From the NCBI GenBank assembly GCA_014084085.1, contig NPFB01000001.1:72033-136032 (forward strand): 64,000 nt of DNA. Reading direction: 5' to 3'. This document shows, one piece after another, positions 5,547 through 26,858 of the stretch (position 1 is its first letter; each line of letters opens with the position of its first letter). The position numbers were made by a program, and so were the translations under genes. Under the pieces are notes generated by a model. It saw only the letters and a list, made by a program, of their open reading frames with translations. It was not told the DNA's origin and did not search any database. The DNA is from Hondaea fermentalgiana (lineage: Eukaryota; Sar; Bigyra; Thraustochytrida; Thraustochytriidae).

Positions 5547-8500
5547 ATGACGAGCGTACTCGTGTTCTCCGGCGTGGGCAGCGTCAGCGCCGAGACGGCG
5601 CAAGTCATGGAAAAGATGCTCGGCGTCGAGCACGTTGATGCCGTTGCAGAGCGCCTCGAGCAGGAGCACGGCGTGCAGCTCCGCGAGGTGCTCCAGCGCG
5701 TGCGCACGGCGCCCGAAAGCCTTACCGCCCTCGAAGAAATCGTGGCGCAGCTCGTCGTGCAGCTCGGCGCCGCCCAAATTGCCCGCAGCGCCCTCGGACC
5801 CGAGGCCGAGATTGTCGTCGTCGGCCATAGCATCGGTGAGCTCGCTGCCGCCGTTGTGGCCGGCCACCTCTCGCCCGCCGAGGCCGTCGACGCCGCCGTC
5901 TGCCTCGCCCACGTGACCGGATCCGAGCAAGGAGGCCTCGTCTACGGCACCCTCGGCCCCCAGGACCAGGTCGCTTCTCTCAACCACGTTGACGAGGACG
6001 GCGCCGACGTTGGCGCTGCCATCATCCTTGGCGACGAGGCCGCAATCGAGGCCGACAGCCGCTCCAAGGTGCATACCGGATTTCCCTGGCACGCCTCCGT
6101 CTACGAGTCCCACGAGTGGCGCAAGCTGCCTGCGCGCCCAGCTGGGTCGGCCGATGGCAAGAACCTCCCGCTGGCACTTTCCTTGCTCGGTGGATTCGGA
6201 AATGACGAAGAGAACATGACGCTCTTTGACGATGAGTACTGGGCCCGTTGGACCCACACGGGCGTTGATTTGGCCAAGACCCTTGCGGCTGTCCAGGAGC
6301 GCTGCGCCGGCAAAATCGCCCGCGTCGTAGAGCTCGGCGCGCACCCCATTCTCGCGCCCTCCCTGCGCCGTGCCTTTGGACCCGACAGTCCTGCTCCGCG
6401 TGCCATGGTCGACCGCCAGCGCGGTCTCCACCTCGACGCCTGGCGCGAGATTGTTGGCGCCACGCAGGGTGCCGGTGTGCTGGCTGCACTCCGCGAGGCC
6501 TTTCCCGTGGCCCTCGATATGGACGCCACCTGGCTCGAGAGTGGGCTCGCCAGCGCCGACATTGTGCAGGGCGCCGCCAAGCTGCACCGCAGCGGCGTCT
6601 TCGTGGGCCTCAAGGCCCACGACTTTTACCGGCACGTGACCCCGCAAGACCTCATTGAACGCTTTGGCGAGGTCGCCGGTGCCAAGACTGCCGAGGGTAC
6701 ATCCGCTGCTGCTGAGAGCGCCTCCGAGAGCGCCATCTCCGCTTCAGGCGCTCGTCCTCGTGTGGTCATCCGCGCCATGAGCTGCCTGTTGCCGGCCAAC
6801 ATCAAGTCGCCGGCACAGCTGTTCGCGTTCACGTCGTCGCAGGGCGACGCTGTGCGCTTCGACGCGGGCTTTGACGGCGGCAAGCGCGCAGCTGCCTTTC
6901 TCGGGGATCTGACGCTGGACTGCGCCAAGTTCGGAATCTCGCAAGGCGAGGCCCAGACTCTGGACCCGCAACAGGCACTCGTGCTCTCGTGCGTGGACAA
7001 GCTTCTCACTGAGCATGGTATCGAGCAGCTTCCCGTGCGCACCGGCGTCTACATTGGCGCCTGGAACTCGGAGTTTGCCGGCGACCGCTCCTCGGTCTTT
7101 TACCCGACGGGCACCAACCCGAGCATCATCGCCGCGCGCGTCAGCCACGTCTACCGCCTCCACGGTCCTTGCAAGGTCATCAACTCCGCCTGCGCCTCCT
7201 CGCTCGACGCTGTGCTCGAGGCCCAGCGCGACCTCGCCGCCGGCACCATCGATGCCGCCATTGCCGGTGGCGTCAACCTGCTCTGGGACCCCGCCTTCTC
7301 CACCTGCATGGCGCAGTCCGGCTTCCTCGCCCCCGGTGCGCGCTGCCGCTCCTTTGACTCTAGCGCCGACGGCTACGTGCGCAGTGAAGGCGCCGCGCTC
7401 GTGCTGCTCCAGCGCCGCGAGCCCAAGAACTCGGATGCTCTCAACGGCTCTGACGCCGGCAAGGTCAACAATGACGACTGCGAGCCGTATTACGCCGAGG
7501 TGCTCGGCGGCGCCTCCAACCAGAATGGTGGCCGCGGCGCGAGCCTGACCGCGCCCAGCCCGGCCGCTCAGGAGGAGTGCATTGCGGCGGCTCTGCGCGC
7601 GGCGCGCGTGGATGCTGGCGAGGTGGACTTTGTCGAGTGCCACGGTACCGGCACGAAGCTCGGCGATCCGATCGAATGGAGCGCTCTCAAGGCTGCCGTG
7701 GGCACGTCCCGGTCGGCGGACCGTCCCTGCTACCTGGCGAGCGTCAAGAGCAGCCTCGGCCATCTCGAGGCCGCCGCCGGCGTCGCAGGTTTGCTGCACG
7801 CAGCCATGGTGCTCTCGCGCCAGGAAGTTCCGCGCATGGCCAACTTTGTCGAGGCCAACCCGCTTCTGGAACCCTGCGAGGGTCTTCGCCTCGCCGCCGA
7901 CGCCAACGTCCGCCCTGACCAGCCGCTCCGTGTCGCTGGCGTCTCCTCCTTTGGCTTTGGCGGCAGCAACGTCCACATCTTGCTTCGTGCCGCGCCGCAG
8001 CAGCTCTTGCCCAAGCCGCTTCCGCCCGTTGCCGCCCCCGCCAAGGAGCGCAACAGCAACAGCAAGGTCTTTGTCTTTGACCGTACGCAGCAACGCGCCC
8101 AGATTCTCGAGCAGCAGCAGCAAATGCAGCAAATGCAGAAACTGCAGCGAATGCAATTGCAGCACGAACCCGCGCAGCAGGTTTCCTCCGCCGCCCACGA
8201 GGACGCGAGCATGCAGCAGACCGTCATGGAGCAGATTTTCTGGGACGTTGTGAGCTCCGTCGCTGGCCAGGTCTCCCCCGAGGCGCAGATTCTTCAGAGC
8301 GGCGTCGACTCGCTTGGCCTCACCGAACTTTTCTTGCGCATCGAGCAAAAGATGGCCGTCGAGGCTTCCTCGCTCAGCGACTTTCTCGGCGGTGGCTATA
8401 CCTGGGCCGACCTTCGTGAGAAGATCATGCAGTCTGCCAAGATCGCCCCCAGTGAGATCTCGCGCGCGCAGGCCACTGCTGCGCCGACCCCTGTTCCCGC

Positions 8501-11500
8501 CGTCGCGCCGCAGGCCAAACGTCAGTCGGCCCGCGCACCCGAATCCGAGCGCGAGGATTCTGTGCCGGATGCTTTTACCTGGGCTGTCCCGCGTTTCGAT
8601 GGTCTTATCCGGACTACTCACGTCGGCTCGCTTCCGCGTCCCCGTGAGCCGGAGCAGCAGTACAAGGAGCTCCACAAGATCATTCAGACCCAGCTCAGCA
8701 TCGGTATTAGCATCATCAATGACGGCGAGGCCGGCCGCATGGACTACGTCACCTCGGCGCTCACGCGCATGTCCGGCTTCGAAGAGCAGGACGAATCCGT
8801 CGCGCCGCAGCCGCTCGACCTCGAGGATTTGCCCTGCCTCGCGCGCCGCTTCCTCGTTCGCGCGGGTCTCATCACGCTCAACAAGAGCGTGCGCACGTGC
8901 AACCCGCACTGCATCGGCGAGGTCACCTACACGGGCCAAAAGGCCCTCGAGCGCGAGCTCCAGACCGTGCAGCGCGCCATGCGCCTCTGCAACGCTGGAC
9001 TTCCCGGTCAGGCCTTTTACTCTGCGCCCTCCCCCGGCACGCTCGCCATGTTCTTCAACAATGATGCCCCTGAGGTCTACCCCACCTACGAGGAGTACCT
9101 CGGCGCGGTGGCCGACGCGATGCACGTCGAGTACGCCACGATCGTTCGTCATGGTTTCACGCTCCAGGTCGACTGCCCCGATCTTGCCATGTCGCGTCAC
9201 ACGCGCTTCAAGCACCTTGGTCTCATGGCCTGGAAGCGCATCGCCCGCATGCACGTCAAGATGCTCAACCGTGCGCTCGAAGGCATTCCTCGCGAGGCTG
9301 TACGCGTCCACGTCTGCTGGGGCAACTACCCGGGCACGCATCACCGCGACGTGAGCGCGCGCGAGGTCATGCCCATTGCTTTTGGTATCAACGCTGGTGG
9401 CTTTGGATTTGAGACCGCCAACCACCGCCACAACGCCGACGCCGGCGCGCTTCTGGACGTGGACATTCCCAAGGACGTTGATCTGTACCCGGGCGTCATC
9501 GACACCTGCTCCTCGAGCGTCGAGGACCCCTCGGTGGTCTGCGAGCGCATCTGCCGCTATGCCCGCGTTGTGGGCCCCGAGCGGGTCATCGCCGGTACCG
9601 ACTGTGGGTTCTCCACCACGGCGGAGACCCAGGGCATCCCGGGCCAGGTCGCCATGCTCAAGATGCGCGCCCTCGTTGCCGGTGCCCGCATGGCCTCTCG
9701 CGCCTTCTTCCCTAAGGTCGTCCCGGGCTTTGTCCTTCGCCCCGCCCGCCGCCGTTTCTACTTTGCCCAGGAGGCGTCTGCCAAGGTGCTCGATGCCGTG
9801 CAGCCGGATCCTGCCGACGGTGGCAGCGAAGAGACGCGGATCGTGCTCACCGGACATCTTGATCCGGAACAGGATGCCGCCCGCTTTGCGGCCCATGTCC
9901 GTCTCTTTGTTGACGTCCCCGTGCGCTTTGCCACGGACGGTTCCGCCCAGTCCGAGGACTTTGTCAAGCGTGTCAAGGCATACCTCGCCGACGGCAAGCG
10001 TCGCAACTCCCCGGCCTACCCTGTCGAGGATGATGAGGCCGTCGGCCTGCTCACCAAGGAAGACATGGTTGTCTCAACGTCTGGCGCTCCCCGGGACTCT
10101 TATGAGGTGGTCGTCGTCGGCGCCGGTGTGGTCGGTCTGCTCGCCGCCAAGCGCCTCATGGATGAGGGCGTTGACGTTGTCGTCCTTGAGAAGGAGGAGT
10201 TTTGCGGCGGCATCTGGACCACCTTTGCCAACGCCAAGAGCCAGGTCAACAGCTCCGAGGGCTCGTACCGCGTCGTCCACGACTACCGCTCGCGCCCGAA
10301 CCGCGACCACAGTACCACGGCCGAGGTTCGCGCCGATATTCTCAAGCTGGCACGCGAGCTCAACGCCCAGGGCCGCCTCTTCACGAGTACCCGCGTTGCA
10401 AACGTCGAGCGCTCCGGCGCCTCGGGTTCCTCGTACACTGTGAGCCTCGAAAAGAGCGGGGCCAAGATCACCGCGACGGGAGTCATTCTCGCCATTAACG
10501 ATCGCGTCGGTACCCCTCGTCCCATTGTCTGGAAGCAGCACGAGGTGTTCTCCGGCCAGATTGTCGATGGTTTTGGAGGCGACGCCGAGAACAAAAACAT
10601 TGACTGGGCTGGCAAGCGGGTCGTCGTTGTTGGCATGGGCGCCTTCGCCGTCGAGAACGCGCGTACTGCGCTTGAACACGGTGCCAAGAACGTAGTCGTC
10701 CTGGCGCGTCGCCATGGCACCATTTGCCCCAAGTACATTGACTACATTAACTTTGTGCACCGCGCAAGCGTCGATGACATTGGCGACGAGATGAATGCCA
10801 CCCACAACAGCAAGAACATGTTTCTTTGGCGTCAGCTTTACGCATCGAGCAACTCGACCATGCCCGAGTGCTGGCTTGACCTCATCAAGCACACGGGCCA
10901 CACTATTAGCGTCTCGGACGTCTGGTTCGTGGGCCACTTTCTCGGTAAGCTCGAGACCTGCGTTGGCGAGATCGACCACTTTGTCGAGAACGGTGTCGTC
11001 GTGCGTGGCGGCAGCGCGGACGATGTGATCGAGGCGGACATTGTGGTTCGCTGCACTGGCTTTGAGCGTAACGCCAGTCTTGTGCCCGACCTTACACCCT
11101 ACACGCACATGAACGCCATCAACTACCTTGACACCAACGTCATGTACCTGGCGGACGCCTTTATTGACGACGACGCCTTCAACTCCTTCTTTGGCTCCAG
11201 CGTTGTCGAAATGTCCAAGTTCTACGTCATGGTTTACCTGCACTTTTTCAAGGGCAACGACGCAGCCATTCTTGACAGCGCCGAGCTTGCCAACAATGTT
11301 GATGTGCAGGATCGCAAGTGGACGGACTACATTCGTGGCGCCGAATTTCTCGTGGACAAGGTCCCTGGTATCCGAGAGAAGGCTAATGCGCTCCTTCGCA
11401 GCCGTCGGGACGACTTTGTCGATTCTCAGTCGGTCGAAGAGTATATTGCAGCCAACCGTCGCGAGTGGCAGGAGCTGCACGACATTCTCTCGCAGGGCAT

Positions 11501-11546
11501 CATCGACGAGTCTTGCGCGCTGCCCTACCCTGACTGGAAGGCCTGA
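5547..11546 (+). CDS. AT-KS-ACP-MetE-like-FMO fusion polyketide synthase
   Basis: A 1999-residue single-exon protein starting at the first in-frame ATG (5547). Domains in order: an FabD-like acyltransferase (about 1-345; GHSIGE with Ser95, likely catalytic His182 in GFPWH); a ketosynthase (about 405-850; Cys549 in ACASS, His699 in HGTGT, His739 in GHLEAA, a complete C-H-H triad); a Gln/Met-rich linker (about 855-885); an acyl carrier domain (GVDSLG, phosphopantetheine Ser922); a cobalamin-independent methionine synthase-like domain (about 1018-1390; HVC with His1255 and Cys1257, and GTDCGF with Cys1353, the expected zinc ligands); and a flavin monooxygenase-like domain (about 1518-1990; FAD motif GAGVVG near 1525, NADPH-type GMGAFA near 1696). 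No ketoreductase, dehydratase, enoylreductase or thioesterase is visible. It probably makes one condensation, with alkyl or thiol transfer and oxidation acting on the product. Substrate and product are unknown. Confidence 0.9.
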   Translation: MTSVLVFSGVGSVSAETAQVMEKMLGVEHVDAVAERLEQEHGVQLREVLQRVRTAPESLTALEEIVAQLVVQLGAAQIARSALGPEAEIVVVGHSIGELAAAVVAGHLSPAEAVDAAVCLAHVTGSEQGGLVYGTLGPQDQVASLNHVDEDGADVGAAIILGDEAAIEADSRSKVHTGFPWHASVYESHEWRKLPARPAGSADGKNLPLALSLLGGFGNDEENMTLFDDEYWARWTHTGVDLAKTLAAVQERCAGKIARVVELGAHPILAPSLRRAFGPDSPAPRAMVDRQRGLHLDAWREIVGATQGAGVLAALREAFPVALDMDATWLESGLASADIVQGAAKLHRSGVFVGLKAHDFYRHVTPQDLIERFGEVAGAKTAEGTSAAAESASESAISASGARPRVVIRAMSCLLPANIKSPAQLFAFTSSQGDAVRFDAGFDGGKRAAAFLGDLTLDCAKFGISQGEAQTLDPQQALVLSCVDKLLTEHGIEQLPVRTGVYIGAWNSEFAGDRSSVFYPTGTNPSIIAARVSHVYRLHGPCKVINSACASSLDAVLEAQRDLAAGTIDAAIAGGVNLLWDPAFSTCMAQSGFLAPGARCRSFDSSADGYVRSEGAALVLLQRREPKNSDALNGSDAGKVNNDDCEPYYAEVLGGASNQNGGRGASLTAPSPAAQEECIAAALRAARVDAGEVDFVECHGTGTKLGDPIEWSALKAAVGTSRSADRPCYLASVKSSLGHLEAAAGVAGLLHAAMVLSRQEVPRMANFVEANPLLEPCEGLRLAADANVRPDQPLRVAGVSSFGFGGSNVHILLRAAPQQLLPKPLPPVAAPAKERNSNSKVFVFDRTQQRAQILEQQQQMQQMQKLQRMQLQHEPAQQVSSAAHEDASMQQTVMEQIFWDVVSSVAGQVSPEAQILQSGVDSLGLTELFLRIEQKMAVEASSLSDFLGGGYTWADLREKIMQSAKIAPSEISRAQATAAPTPVPAVAPQAKRQSARAPESEREDSVPDAFTWAVPRFDGLIRTTHVGSLPRPREPEQQYKELHKIIQTQLSIGISIINDGEAGRMDYVTSALTRMSGFEEQDESVAPQPLDLEDLPCLARRFLVRAGLITLNKSVRTCNPHCIGEVTYTGQKALERELQTVQRAMRLCNAGLPGQAFYSAPSPGTLAMFFNNDAPEVYPTYEEYLGAVADAMHVEYATIVRHGFTLQVDCPDLAMSRHTRFKHLGLMAWKRIARMHVKMLNRALEGIPREAVRVHVCWGNYPGTHHRDVSAREVMPIAFGINAGGFGFETANHRHNADAGALLDVDIPKDVDLYPGVIDTCSSSVEDPSVVCERICRYARVVGPERVIAGTDCGFSTTAETQGIPGQVAMLKMRALVAGARMASRAFFPKVVPGFVLRPARRRFYFAQEASAKVLDAVQPDPADGGSEETRIVLTGHLDPEQDAARFAAHVRLFVDVPVRFATDGSAQSEDFVKRVKAYLADGKRRNSPAYPVEDDEAVGLLTKEDMVVSTSGAPRDSYEVVVVGAGVVGLLAAKRLMDEGVDVVVLEKEEFCGGIWTTFANAKSQVNSSEGSYRVVHDYRSRPNRDHSTTAEVRADILKLARELNAQGRLFTSTRVANVERSGASGSSYTVSLEKSGAKITATGVILAINDRVGTPRPIVWKQHEVFSGQIVDGFGGDAENKNIDWAGKRVVVVGMGAFAVENARTALEHGAKNVVVLARRHGTICPKYIDYINFVHRASVDDIGDEMNATHNSKNMFLWRQLYASSNSTMPECWLDLIKHTGHTISVSDVWFVGHFLGKLETCVGEIDHFVENGVVVRGGSADDVIEADIVVRCTGFERNASLVPDLTPYTHMNAINYLDTNVMYLADAFIDDDAFNSFFGSSVVEMSKFYVMVYLHFFKGNDAAILDSAELANNVDVQDRKWTDYIRGAEFLVDKVPGIREKANALLRSRRDDFVDSQSVEEYIAANRREWQELHDILSQGIIDESCALPYPDWKA

Positions 11547-11830: not shown

Positions 11831-13276
11831 TCATGAAGAGGCCCCGGGAGCACTCGCTGCTGGGCTCGGGTTGTCAAACGTTTGCTCCGATGATTCGAAC
11901 GTATCCTGAGGATCTTGCGACGGTTGCGAGTCTGCAGTTTGATAGATTTGCGCTGAGCTGTCGAACTGCTGAGCTGTGAGCGTTGAAGCTTCCTCTGACA
12001 AATTCGAGTTCGCAGTTTGAGAGGTCTGCGTTGCGCTTACGAACTGCTGAGCTGCGGAGGCTGGAACGTCTTGCAAAAGGCTTGCGCTGGCAGGCTGAAG
12101 ACTCACGAACTGCTGAGCTATGGGCGTTGAAAGTCCATGTGAGAAATTTGCGCTCGCAGGCTGAATACTTTGAACTTGATTCAAGAGCTGCTGGTGTACG
12201 AGCGAACGATATTGCTGAAAAAGCTGTTGCTGTTGCTGATGAAATTGGATCTCTTGCGCAGCAAGAGACTGATCGAAAACAGTAGTGGGATTGGGACCTG
12301 AGATCGCTGCACCACGTTGTGTGAATGCAGAGTGAACGGGAAAGCCAGCTCCTCGAGTTGGTGGAGAGACCTCAAGGCTTGTGGTGGTGGCTGCGTGAGC
12401 AGCTTCCGGCATCACTGCCCTCCGATTAGATTGTGTGTGCTGAAGCTCCTCTGTCTGCGCTCGAATAGGTTCTTGCTCATAGACTTGTTCTGGCTCGAAA
12501 TAATGATATCCTGGCGCCGACAAGACCTGTGCTGTAGCTTGTTCGAGACTGTCATCTCTGTCTCCTTCCTCTTCACCTGCATTTCCCTGATCTGATGCCG
12601 ATTCGGAGACTCCTTCCAATTCTTTCATTTGCTTTTGTACAAGCTTGAATTCAAAATGCATTTCTTCTTTGAGACTGAGGACAAACCGAAGCACAACGCC
12701 AACGATTAAATAACCGATCCAGCTGAAGAAGATTGTTGCGAAAATCCAAATACACAGGACCTCCCCATTCATCATTGGAGGAGCATACTTTGACAGTTTG
12801 CTTTCCTTTCCCTTCATTGCGTAAAAGGCGGGAATGATGCACACGAGTGGCATTGCGTAGAGCAAGATAAGCACAGAAGCAATTATGTGCTTGACGGTCA
12901 CGCTGACAAGGCGGCCACTTGTATAAACCCGTGTTGGATTTGAATCGTACCAATCATCATCGACTGTTGGACTCGATGTCGTGGGTGAGATGCCATACCA
13001 ATTGTACTCAGAAGACGAATAGCATTCAACGGTGCCGTAGCTACTGTACCAGGACAGCTTGCAAAAGTCATAATAATACAGCGAGCACTCATTGTAGCAG
13101 CACGAACTTGATACAGAATAGACACCACCATTGCAAATACTCGCCTGCGCGGGATCTGCGAGTGGAATCTCTATCGGTCCCATCGTTCCTCGTAGCAGAG
13201 CTTCACGTTGTAGCACTGGCCAGGAGAACTGCAATGGATGTTTGCCTTCCCGTTTTGATGCACATCGAGACAGCAT
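11831..13276 (-). CDS. membrane protein, Tyr/Cys-rich N-terminal region and Gln-rich repeat tail
   Basis: 481 residues from an ATG at 13276; a second ATG 31 codons later (13183) is a possible start. I do not recognise the family. Visible parts: a Cys/Tyr/Ser-rich segment (about residues 45-95; several Cys including a CC pair) that could be an ectodomain; two strong membrane segments (about 127-155 and 172-200) joined by a basic loop; and a long Gln/Ser/Ala tail from about 205 to the end. The tail contains at least three imperfect repeats of 30-40 residues built around AQQF-V/D-S. No signal peptide is clear, so topology is uncertain. It is convergent with the fusion synthase (284 bases between stops) and lies between it and the transacylase gene; a link to either is only a guess. 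Confidence 0.65.
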   Translation of the reverse strand: MLSRCASKREGKHPLQFSWPVLQREALLRGTMGPIEIPLADPAQASICNGGVYSVSSSCCYNECSLYYYDFCKLSWYSSYGTVECYSSSEYNWYGISPTTSSPTVDDDWYDSNPTRVYTSGRLVSVTVKHIIASVLILLYAMPLVCIIPAFYAMKGKESKLSKYAPPMMNGEVLCIWIFATIFFSWIGYLIVGVVLRFVLSLKEEMHFEFKLVQKQMKELEGVSESASDQGNAGEEEGDRDDSLEQATAQVLSAPGYHYFEPEQVYEQEPIRAQTEELQHTQSNRRAVMPEAAHAATTTSLEVSPPTRGAGFPVHSAFTQRGAAISGPNPTTVFDQSLAAQEIQFHQQQQQLFQQYRSLVHQQLLNQVQSIQPASANFSHGLSTPIAQQFVSLQPASASLLQDVPASAAQQFVSATQTSQTANSNLSEEASTLTAQQFDSSAQIYQTADSQPSQDPQDTFESSEQTFDNPSPAASAPGASS

Positions 13277-13735: not shown

Positions 13736-14656
13736 CTATTGGAACTCGACAAAAAGAGACTCATCTTCGACGAGGGAGGGGTCAATCGAACGAAGCATTG
13801 CACGAAATTGTCCCTTTGACGCAAGATCAACGATGACCTTTGGGCGCGGATCAGCGACAATTGACTGCAAAATGCTCTCCCATTGCACCGTGGATACGAC
13901 CTGGTCCGCAAGGCACTCGAGCACATCATCAGTGTCAGTGTAGAGTTTGCCAGATACATTGGCGAAGATGACGCTATCGGGGCGTCCGCGAGCCGGCATG
14001 ACTTTACCGCGTAAATTGCGGATAGCATCGGCGCCAGGAGTCATTTGTTCGGTGTGAAAGGCACCTGCAAGGTCTGTACGGACTCTGGCTCGCTCAGCTA
14101 GCTCTGGGACCCAGTTCACTTTGGTCAATTTGGCACTTGGGCCCGCCACGACACAACATCCGGGGTACAATTTGGATGCGATACTGCCGTGCGCCAACAG
14201 CGCCGTCTCGTCTTGCACGCCTTGCAAGGTGACCATTGTTCCCGGGACAGCCTCACACGCGGATTGCATTGCTGCAGCTCGCGCGCGGAGGACACGCAAG
14301 CCATCACGGAGGCTGAGTTTCCCAGCGCCGACAAGGGCCGGGATCTCGCCTACAGAAAAGCCGGCAAAGCACGTCTGCGTACCTGGCTGTGCAAAGAGGT
14401 CGCTGCGTTCCTTGCGCAGCCTATCGATGCGGTCCAACGCGCGCACGCCTACTGCCAGCTGCGCGTAGTAGGTGTTGCCGCTGAGCTGCTCTGCCGTGAG
14501 CCGTGTCACGTCTAACCCAAGCTCATCCTGGGCACACGAGGCAACACGCGCGCTCTGCAGCGGCGCGACGCCTTCGCTGCGCGTGCCTTGGCCCGGCACG
14601 AGCACGAAGATCACTCGCGCCGTCGTCGCCTCGCTCGAGTCGGAAGGGACTGCCAT
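13736..14656 (-). CDS. MCAT: malonyl-CoA:ACP transacylase (FabD/MCAT type)
   Basis: 306 residues, the normal length for this enzyme. It moves malonyl from CoA to the phosphopantetheine arm of an acyl carrier protein. Visible motifs: PGQG near the N-terminus, catalytic Ser101 in GFSVGE, and catalytic His201 in GAFHTEQM. I chose the ATG at 14656 because its context (AAAATGG) is good and PGQG follows about 20 residues later. An upstream in-frame ATG at 14728 would add 24 residues (Trp/Cys/Met-rich, ending QRRNK) that are not a convincing targeting peptide. The enzyme could serve mitochondrial fatty-acid synthesis or load the carrier domain of the neighbouring fusion synthase; the sequence does not decide. 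Confidence 0.88.
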   Translation of the reverse strand: MAVPSDSSEATTARVIFVLVPGQGTRSEGVAPLQSARVASCAQDELGLDVTRLTAEQLSGNTYYAQLAVGVRALDRIDRLRKERSDLFAQPGTQTCFAGFSVGEIPALVGAGKLSLRDGLRVLRARAAAMQSACEAVPGTMVTLQGVQDETALLAHGSIASKLYPGCCVVAGPSAKLTKVNWVPELAERARVRTDLAGAFHTEQMTPGADAIRNLRGKVMPARGRPDSVIFANVSGKLYTDTDDVLECLADQVVSTVQWESILQSIVADPRPKVIVDLASKGQFRAMLRSIDPSLVEDESLFVEFQ

Positions 14657-15128
14657 TTTATTTCGTCTTTGTTCGAAGCAAGCAAGCCAATCAAGCCAAC
14701 AAAGCGTCATCATCGTCACTTGCATCATCACCCTTCTTCTTCTTCTTCTTCTTCTTCTTCATTGACACCACTCTGCGTTGGCAGCCTCAGCCGAGCTTAA
14801 TGAGATAAACAGAGGATGGCTGGCATGAGGTTGTGTGAGCAGAAGGCAATCGTATTTAGTGTTGAGTTAGTGTTGAGCCTGTCATAGTCCTGTTGCGCAC
14901 AAACTTTGTGCTTTTGCCTGGATGAAAGTCAACAGAGGTGCTTCATTTTTTAGGAAAACGAAATATTCAAGCTTAGGGAGAACATGAGCAACAGTAGTAG
15001 AACGTGTCGTTCGTGTGGAACGCAAAGATAAAAAGTTTTGAAATCATGTCTTACAAAATTGCCAATTCTAAACTGATTGGCGGCGTCTTCTGAAGAAATT
15101 TCCCTCCGTTGAAGCGTGCAAAAGAAGA
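14657..15128. other. intergenic spacer with (TTC)9 just upstream of the transacylase
   Basis: 472 bases between the transacylase start and the HINT stop, both on the minus strand. A (TTC)9 tract lies at 14734-14760. The remainder shows no open frame of note. Confidence 0.5.
14734..14760. repeat. (TTC)9 / (GAA)9 microsatellite
   Basis: Nine perfect TTC units on the plus strand, reading GAA in the sense of the transacylase. It ends 6 bases before the upstream ATG at 14728, so it is probably in the transcript leader or promoter. Confidence 0.9.
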
Positions 15129-25445: not shown

Positions 25446-26858
25446 ATGACGACGGAAAGGTTCGCCCTCCACGTGCCCGACGCGACGCTGGAGGACCTGC
25501 GCGAGAGGCTCGCGAATCGGGACCTTAGCTGGCTGAGCGACTTCGTCCCGCCTGAACGCGGAGATCTCCCCGACCTCCGGGCCGATGAAAGGCTCGCCAC
25601 CTCGTACGCCAACGAAAATTACAGCGTCTCCGGGTCACCCTCAGCCTGGAGGTACGGCATCGACCCGGAGATTCTCGAGGACGTGCTCAAGTACTTTGAG
25701 ACGGACTTTCTCGACAACTGGCGCGAGAAAGAAGCCAAGCTCAATGAATTGCCGCAATACATTGCCGAGGTCGAACCAGGTGTAAAGATCCACTACATCC
25801 ACGCACGATGCGCTGCCGGCGATCAAGCGCTGACCGTCTTCTTGCTGCACGGATGGCCCTCAACCCTCTTTGACCACCACAAAGTTGTGCCCCATCTTAT
25901 CGCACGAGGATACAACGTCATTGTGCCATCGATTCCTGGTTTCGGCTATTCGCAGATTACCGGGGATCTGGTGCCGCACAGCGGCGCGGTTCGCACCGCC
26001 GAGCTTTACGACAAGCTCGCCTGCGAGGTGCTCGGGCTTCCCGCCTATGCTGTGCAGGGCGGCGACTGGGGTGGGGCCATCGGTACAATAATGGCTGCTC
26101 GCTCGAGCCACTGTATTGCTCTTCATTTGAACCTGCCCGTTGCTATGGTCACGAAACGGTTTTCTCTGCTCAATGCGAACAAGGTCGCTCGTCTCGCAGC
26201 ATACGCTCTTGCTCCTTCGTGGACGCTTGGCCCGCGCGAAGCTTCTGCAGCAGAAAACCTCGTCGCGTTTCTCCGAACGAACACGGGATACTTTCTGCAG
26301 CATGTTACGAAACCCGCAACGCTGGGCCACGCGCTGCGCGAGTCCCCGGCAGGCCTTGTGGCCTGGATCATGGAGAAGTTCTACATTTGCACAGACTTTC
26401 GCAGCACTGGCAATGTTTTTGATGCCGTGTCCAAGGACGAAATCCTCACCACCGTCATGATGTTCTGGGCGACTGACTCCATTGCCTCTTCTATGGCCTT
26501 TTACCGCCACTGCCGCAACCTCGCAGATGAGCTTCCCGATTTTGTCAGCGTGCCAACAGCGCTTCTGGTGGCGCCCTGCGAGCCCCTTCAAATGCCTCGC
26601 CGTCTCATGGACCTCTCGTTCAACGTTCGCCGCTACACAGAGCTTGACGTGGGCGGCCATTTTCTACCAATGGAGCAGCCCGAACTCTTGGCGAACGACC
26701 TCGCAGCCTTTTTGAAAGAGGTTGGTGCCGTGTCGCCCACGTCGCGGCCCGTTCGTGCAGAGCTTTCCTCCTTGCAAATGCTCCGCGCAAGTCTTCCGCT
26801 CGTGTCGTTGCCCGTCATGGTGGGTGGGGCTGCAGCTCTGATTCGGAGCCGGCTGTGA
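25446..26858 (+). CDS. microsomal-type epoxide hydrolase (alpha/beta hydrolase)
   Basis: 470 residues starting at the ATG at 25446. The N-terminal 120 residues match the epoxide hydrolase N-terminal segment (FALHVPDATLEDLRERL, then the DWREKE-like NWREKEAKLN). The catalytic core shows the HGWP oxyanion motif (His135), the nucleophile Asp207 in GGDWGG, and likely triad partners Glu379 and His405 (GGHFLPMEQPELL). This fits the EPHX1/juvenile-hormone-epoxide-hydrolase family, which adds water to epoxides. The usual N-terminal membrane anchor is absent. Instead a hydrophobic stretch near residues 448-466, followed by RSRL at the end, may be a tail anchor. Substrate unknown. Confidence 0.9.
   Translation: MTTERFALHVPDATLEDLRERLANRDLSWLSDFVPPERGDLPDLRADERLATSYANENYSVSGSPSAWRYGIDPEILEDVLKYFETDFLDNWREKEAKLNELPQYIAEVEPGVKIHYIHARCAAGDQALTVFLLHGWPSTLFDHHKVVPHLIARGYNVIVPSIPGFGYSQITGDLVPHSGAVRTAELYDKLACEVLGLPAYAVQGGDWGGAIGTIMAARSSHCIALHLNLPVAMVTKRFSLLNANKVARLAAYALAPSWTLGPREASAAENLVAFLRTNTGYFLQHVTKPATLGHALRESPAGLVAWIMEKFYICTDFRSTGNVFDAVSKDEILTTVMMFWATDSIASSMAFYRHCRNLADELPDFVSVPTALLVAPCEPLQMPRRLMDLSFNVRRYTELDVGGHFLPMEQPELLANDLAAFLKEVGAVSPTSRPVRAELSSLQMLRASLPLVSLPVMVGGAAALIRSRL

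Follow-up and report, generated by a model that had tools for sequence, protein, structure and literature searches.

We analysed a 64,000-nucleotide stretch of the genome of the thraustochytrid Hondaea fermentalgiana, here called the window (C1:72033-136032 of the 36.0-Mb assembly; contig NPFB01000001.1), and in particular a gene in it that encodes a putative one-polypeptide synthase. A sequence-only reading of the window had described this gene as one unbroken frame, in which an acyltransferase (AT), a ketosynthase (KS), an acyl carrier protein (ACP) domain, a MetE-like domain and a flavin monooxygenase (FMO) domain follow one another. The frame indeed runs through 1999 aa without interruption, and the modules and their order stood as described, but the list was incomplete, as a carrier domain between AT and KS had been overlooked. 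The predicted order is almost certainly AT-ACP1-KS-ACP2-MetE-alpha/beta part-FMO (Table 1). Each of the catalytic residues listed in that reading was found at its position and is conserved among the aligned relatives, the sole exception to full conservation being His699, which is kept in 27 of 28 rows. As judged from the alignments, the predicted AT-ACP1-KS-ACP2 series, the zinc-binding single-barrel ('core') MetE domain and the class B flavoprotein-like domain were thus shown to keep their active-site residues.

Table 1. Predicted features of the synthase gene and the separate transacylase-like gene (positions in the window)
Feature	Residues	Position	Strand	Basis
Whole synthase gene	1-1999	5547..11546	+	One frame, 1999 aa, AT-ACP1-KS-ACP2-MetE-like-alpha/beta part-FMO-like
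Acyltransferase (AT)	1-300	5547..6446	+	Ser95, His182; Leu120 at the Arg site of malonyl ATs
Carrier domain ACP1	~305-378	6459..6680	+	Ser336 at 6552-6554
Ketosynthase (KS)	400-830	6744..8036	+	Pfam; PDB matches; Cys549/His699/His739
Carrier domain ACP2	885-955	8199..8411	+	Pfam PP-binding; Ser922 at 8310-8312
Single-barrel ('core') MetE-like domain	1015-1390	8589..9716	+	Zinc ligands, fold matches
Alpha/beta part	1391-1513	9717..10085	+	Alternating strands and helices in the structure model
Class B flavoprotein-like (FMO-like) domain	1514-1999	10086..11543	+	FAD motif 1525, NADPH motif 1696
Malonyl-CoA:ACP transacylase-like gene		13736..14731	-	GFSVGE, Arg at +25, AFHT

The reverse strand of the synthase region also holds an open frame of 1050 aa, as if the synthase frame itself could be due to chance or to an assembly join. 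Because of this second frame, length alone proves nothing here; full-length homologues do. Among the best 120 of 2391 matches, P0002 and P0003 are 68% and 61% identical to the synthase over 100% of the query, each on its own contig, and members were also found in named protist genomes and in one transcriptome. These homologues rule out both a chance frame and an assembly join, the latter a doubt that the sequence-only reading itself had raised, and we regard the probability of either as practically nil. The same reading had held that no described enzyme has this full order. This was not borne out, and the architecture is not new: PMC9734096 (2022), in its accessible parts, describes a Schizochytrium 'MetE-like' gene, A0661, with AT, KS, MetE and CzcO flavoprotein domains. 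In the literature searched, it was the only paper in which we saw a fusion of polyketide synthase (PKS), MetE and flavoprotein domains.

The AT retains its catalytic pair, Ser95 and His182. FabD-type transferases have a malonyl-binding Arg 25 residues past the active Ser; in the alignment this position is L, I, N, M or V in 25 of 25 AT rows and Arg in none, so that the AT does not have the sequence of a malonyl-specific enzyme. A replaced Arg with a carrier immediately after the AT is typical of loading-type ATs, and both features are present, suggesting that this AT is probably a loader of a non-malonyl starter. On this reading, the carrier next to the AT would complete a loading module, and the KS with the second carrier would form a single extension module that has no AT of its own.

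ACP1 is a new element, named neither in the sequence-only reading nor in the four-domain description accessible in PMC9734096. Its Ser336 is present in all 25 rows covering that region. Of five pieces scanned with the Pfam PP-binding model, the Amoebophrya one scored 21.8 bits, above the cut-off of 20.8, three others, the window's own included, scored 14.8-16.7 bits, under the cut-off, and the fifth gave no match. Profile comparison with ACP2 (hhalign) aligned the two Ser residues with an E-value of 2.5e-4 and a probability of just 43%. A carrier-protein Ser typically opens a helix, and in the AlphaFold model (mean pLDDT 89) Ser336 starts a 14-residue helix (336-349) in a block with pLDDT 94-96. 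In addition, the match to Pks13 (NCBIfam) starts within the ACP1 region, at residue 326 of the query and position 28 of the profile. Judging from the alignments and the model, ACP1 is very probably a working carrier.

With a Cys-His-His KS and with AT and carriers on one chain, the protein has the make-up of a type I PKS; Ser922 of ACP2 is conserved in 31/31 rows. Among the 20 KSs outside the family that are closest to that of the synthase, 13 belong to proteins that contain the AT motif GHSxG[EQ] and 7 to proteins that do not, and over all 223 non-family KS segments the median score was 222 bits for the 79 with the motif and 184.5 bits for the 144 without. This comparison of KS similarity revealed no clear trans-AT signature.

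The MetE-like domain retains all four zinc ligands (His1255, Cys1257, Glu1289 and Cys1353) and has acidic residues at Glu1061 and Asp1209. The ligands are of the thiol-activating type, are conserved in every aligned row having a residue there, and make up, in one barrel, the His-x-Cys ... Glu/Asp ... Cys site of core-MetE zinc transferases. The folate-binding N-terminal barrel was not found: ACP2 and the barrel are separated by only some 60 residues, and the 25 of 28 Pfam families shown do not include PF08267. A canonical tandem-repeat MetE was therefore rejected, as just one barrel is present. Free-standing proteins of the 'methionine synthase II family' are 40-46% identical to the domain (120 matches listed); most of those listed are metagenomic, and three are labelled Desulfobacteraceae or Desulfocapsaceae. 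The MetE tree comprised 92 rows: 44 fused, 23 others, 17 free-standing picked from the 120 listed, and 8 from plasmids, with P0007 and P0278 excluded beforehand. In it, a 67-row group with support 99/93 and an unresolved split into four branches holds the fused domains and the 17 free-standing proteins, and a branch with support 100/99 separates all eight plasmid relatives from the fused domains. For that reason, no functional conclusion was drawn from the bacterial neighbourhoods, which we examined for 8 of the 42 plasmid records with a match. In Croceicoccus, the MetE-like gene stands behind genes for methylenetetrahydrofolate reductase, purU, folD and dihydroneopterin aldolase. In Marinovum, DmdA is encoded at a distance of about 5 kb, and in Sphingobium a glycine-cleavage-T-barrel protein at about 6 kb. 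The neighbours include hisD and genes of the ester-cyclase or SnoaL-like kind in the Roseobacteraceae Octadecabacter, Ruegeria and Marinovum, and 2-oxoglutarate/phytanoyl-CoA oxygenases in Dietzia and Rhodococcus, whereas the Natrinema locus offered nothing interpretable. In P0255-P0257, a related MetE-like domain is joined to an HpcH-type aldolase domain (PF03328).

The alpha/beta part that follows matched none of the Pfam families shown. Both Rossmann motifs of the FMO part, for FAD and for NADPH, are present in 30 of 30 rows, and the fold matches agree with them. FxGxxxHxxxW is the fingerprint of class B flavin monooxygenases; the FMO part lacks it, having FxGxxxD in place of FxGxxxH, and across the 30 rows the His site is occupied by D (19), R (6), N (4) or S (1). 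Sequence and fold matches of this part include Baeyer-Villiger monooxygenases, DiatB and the LbmA Ox-ACP didomain. On a Vibrio nigripulchritudo plasmid, a nonribosomal peptide synthetase/PKS cluster (L010, 13231-17127) also has a flavin domain, which shares 23.9% identity with this part.

The synthase family extends beyond thraustochytrids. Among the best 120 matches, P0008-P0027 are 29-42% identical across 23-100% of the query. In the aligned set of 69 proteins (P0001-P0031 and P0241-P0278), all six domain positions are filled in 23, the window's own included; the remaining 46 lack at least one domain, and many of them are shorter records or fusions of another kind. Six-domain members come from Amoebophrya sp. 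A25 (P0012), Effrenium voratum (P0016), Cladocopium goreaui (P0018), a symbB gene model (P0021), Symbiodinium sp. CCMP2592 ('PKS40', P0023), Chrysophaeum taylorii (P0027) and Pedinellales sp. CCMP2098 (P0014). Those other than P0014 have the domains in the same order as the synthase and are 33-42% identical to it over the aligned part, 49-100% of the query; P0012 and P0027, unlike the synthase, carry extra carrier-like copies. The Emiliania huxleyi record (P0244) has the ACP2-MetE-FMO part only. In other records, ACP2 is duplicated (P0004) or the MetE-FMO pair occurs twice in tandem, without a KS (P0006). The scan of genome contigs gave one locus, L009, with its best match in the KS region (31%, residues 521-815), and no relative was found in the viral contigs scanned with alignment A2.

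Next to the synthase, the separate transacylase-like gene has Arg at +25, as does a free transacylase on contig C29. Between this gene and the synthase lies a 481-aa frame (11831-13276, reverse strand), which matched only Ctr copper transporters, and weakly so (E 0.12), and about 14 kb downstream an epoxide-hydrolase-like protein (EHN plus alpha/beta hydrolase) is encoded at 25446-26858 on the forward strand. In the whole genome, MetH (PF02965) was found at one place, and neither PF01717 nor PF08267 gave a match at the thresholds used, the fused MetE domain itself falling below the PF01717 threshold. PF00698 was found at at least four places, including the synthase AT and the neighbouring transacylase; this is a lower bound, as an AT-like GLSLGE stretch on contig C199 was not picked up. 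That stretch, with Leu at +25, belongs to a frame (L027, from 3530; the locus includes 3427 N) with two KS domains, FabD_helical_ins and a weak nitronate-monooxygenase match, a layout that we take to fit the KS-CLF-AT-ER order (CLF, chain length factor; ER, enoylreductase) of subunit B of thraustochytrid polyunsaturated fatty acid (PUFA) synthase and that agrees with a thraustochytrid origin of the genome. PF01648 was found at three places, one of them within a long frame on contig C101 that also has an AT. Finally, contig C161 (~226811-241999, L025/L026) carries a giant PKS frame of 5708 aa, of which ~5060 aa were scanned, with at least four KS and with ketoreductase (KR), carrier and methyltransferase domains. 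It had no AT among the Pfam families shown (17/17 and 25/30) and none from the PF00698 search, so that it is seemingly an AT-less multimodular PKS of the same genome.

Tentatively, we consider the best overall explanation to be a short one-polypeptide assembly line with one extension, followed by zinc and flavin chemistry. As to the AT substrate, the malonyl source, all the chemistry after condensation and the product, we infer the following. Because its malonyl-binding Arg is lacking, the AT would load a non-malonyl acyl starter onto ACP1, and the KS would condense this starter with a malonyl unit on ACP2 once, a single condensation being fairly likely. The malonyl unit would come from an enzyme acting in trans, for which the transacylase gene 2.2 kb away is a possible candidate. 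Since no KR above the cut-off and no dehydratase (DH), ER or thioesterase (TE) is among the Pfam families shown for the synthase, the beta-keto product would stay on ACP2. The zinc domain might then transfer an alkyl group, most likely methyl, to or from a thiol, and we put such zinc-thiolate transfer on the carrier-bound chain at slightly less than an even chance. The NAD(P)H/FAD domain may oxidise the product and aid its release, and the end product of this scheme would be a small acid, probably sulfur-containing; taken on its own, a sulfur-containing product, as proposed in the sequence-only reading, is possible rather than probable. With all four zinc ligands kept, the sulfur idea is limited to a possibility by a MetE part without the folate half and an FMO part without the fingerprint His. 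Three observations weigh against the reading of the AT as a starter loader. Among PDB entries, human mitochondrial MCAT is the best match of the neighbouring transacylase, which could be either the extender-loading partner of the synthase or a mitochondrial enzyme. KS similarity gives AT-less synthases no preference, the AT motif accompanying most of the best matches. Moreover, Leu at +25 in the PUFA-synthase-like frame of C199 means that loss of the Arg may instead accompany chain release.

The mixture of AT-containing and AT-less PKSs among the closest KSs would also suit an iterative synthase, in which the cis AT loads all malonyl units and a longer chain is made, and some ATs vary at the Arg site. 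However, Arg is missing from every AT row, no DH or ER is among the Pfam families shown, and KR is just a weak match (14.1 bits vs. a cut-off of 22.6) inside the FMO Rossmann part, and we find iteration quite unlikely. Alternatively, the flavin domain could act on an acyl or aminoacyl chain held by the ACP and oxidise a nitrogen or carbon in it, and the MetE barrel could bind or methylate a non-thiol group of that chain. LbmA Ox of the lobatamide PKS, which oxidises an ACP-bound chain, is a precedent for this, but no adenylation domain is among the Pfam families shown, and hence no amino-acid loading is evident, and the thiol-activating type of the conserved zinc ligands likewise makes this reading unlikely. 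In PMC9734096, methionine synthesis and release of eicosapentaenoic acid (EPA) were inferred for the Schizochytrium gene, as if the MetE domain were a cobalamin-free stand-in for MetH and the AT and KS acted on PUFA synthase, releasing EPA. In support of that, the transcript rose 4.21-fold without cobalamin, was reduced by methionine addition and was up at 15 °C, with EPA going from 1.26% to 7.63% (PMC9734096). Hondaea likewise has MetH without a PF01717 or PF08267 match at the search thresholds, the zinc ligands are retained, and the synthase AT is without the malonyl Arg, like the AT-like site on C199; an Arg-less AT fits either starter loading or EPA release. Yet the published link is correlative, no knock-out or enzyme assay appearing in the accessible parts of PMC9734096. 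The MetE part here consists of one barrel and lacks the folate-binding half, and a bacterial core-MetE, in the accessible text of PMC7005905, uses methylcobalamin and not methyl-tetrahydrofolate as methyl donor and did not complement an E. coli metE mutant. By itself, the methionine/EPA role leaves unexplained two carriers and a flavoprotein that are kept from dinoflagellates to stramenopiles. Emiliania huxleyi requires vitamin B12, and yet has an ACP2-MetE-FMO protein. What speaks against the published role, which we consider improbable, is that the MetE domain is a single barrel, that there are two carriers and that the family is spread as it is.

What is new here is ACP1, the predicted Arg-less AT, the core-barrel MetE and the FMO without the fingerprint His, together with the members in dinoflagellates, Amoebophrya, Chrysophaeum, a pedinellid and Emiliania. 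As the synthase is conserved in dinoflagellates, their parasitic relative and stramenopiles, marine protists in general probably have a use for its product. A stronger version of the assembly line, in which the core-MetE barrel acts in cis on the carrier-bound chain, the flavin domain finishes and releases the product, and the published methionine/EPA role is wrong, seems doubtful, and we know of no PKS in which a core-MetE acts in this way. If true, dinoflagellates, haptophytes and thraustochytrids would make a metabolite, possibly an abundant one and perhaps a sulfur compound, that has so far escaped recognition. With its six domains, an AT without the Arg and a MetE of one barrel, the enzyme offers points of attack that could link it, an orphan shared by coral symbionts and oil-producing thraustochytrids, with a metabolite.

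Compared with known systems, the synthase is close to A0661 in its zinc ligands, which are spaced H, C +2, E +34 and C +97 there and +2, +34 and +98 here; the accessible four-domain description of A0661 names no carrier domains, and the synthase has two, a comparison by description and not by alignment (PMC9734096). The bacterial core-MetE shares the single barrel and the His-x-Cys ... Glu/Asp ... Cys zinc site, as far as the accessible text goes (PMC7005905). Unlike the MetE part of the synthase, that enzyme and the free-standing proteins are not fused to a PKS. The LbmA Ox-ACP didomain (8odw) places, as here, a class B flavin domain beside an ACP in a PKS; it is 19% identical to the FMO part over 395 aligned residues, with His at the fingerprint site where the synthase has Asp in the alignment. 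Mycobacterial Pks13 has the layout ACP-KS-AT-ACP-TE, in which carriers flank a single KS as they do in the synthase; in contrast to Pks13, the AT comes first here, and MetE-FMO occupies the place of the TE.

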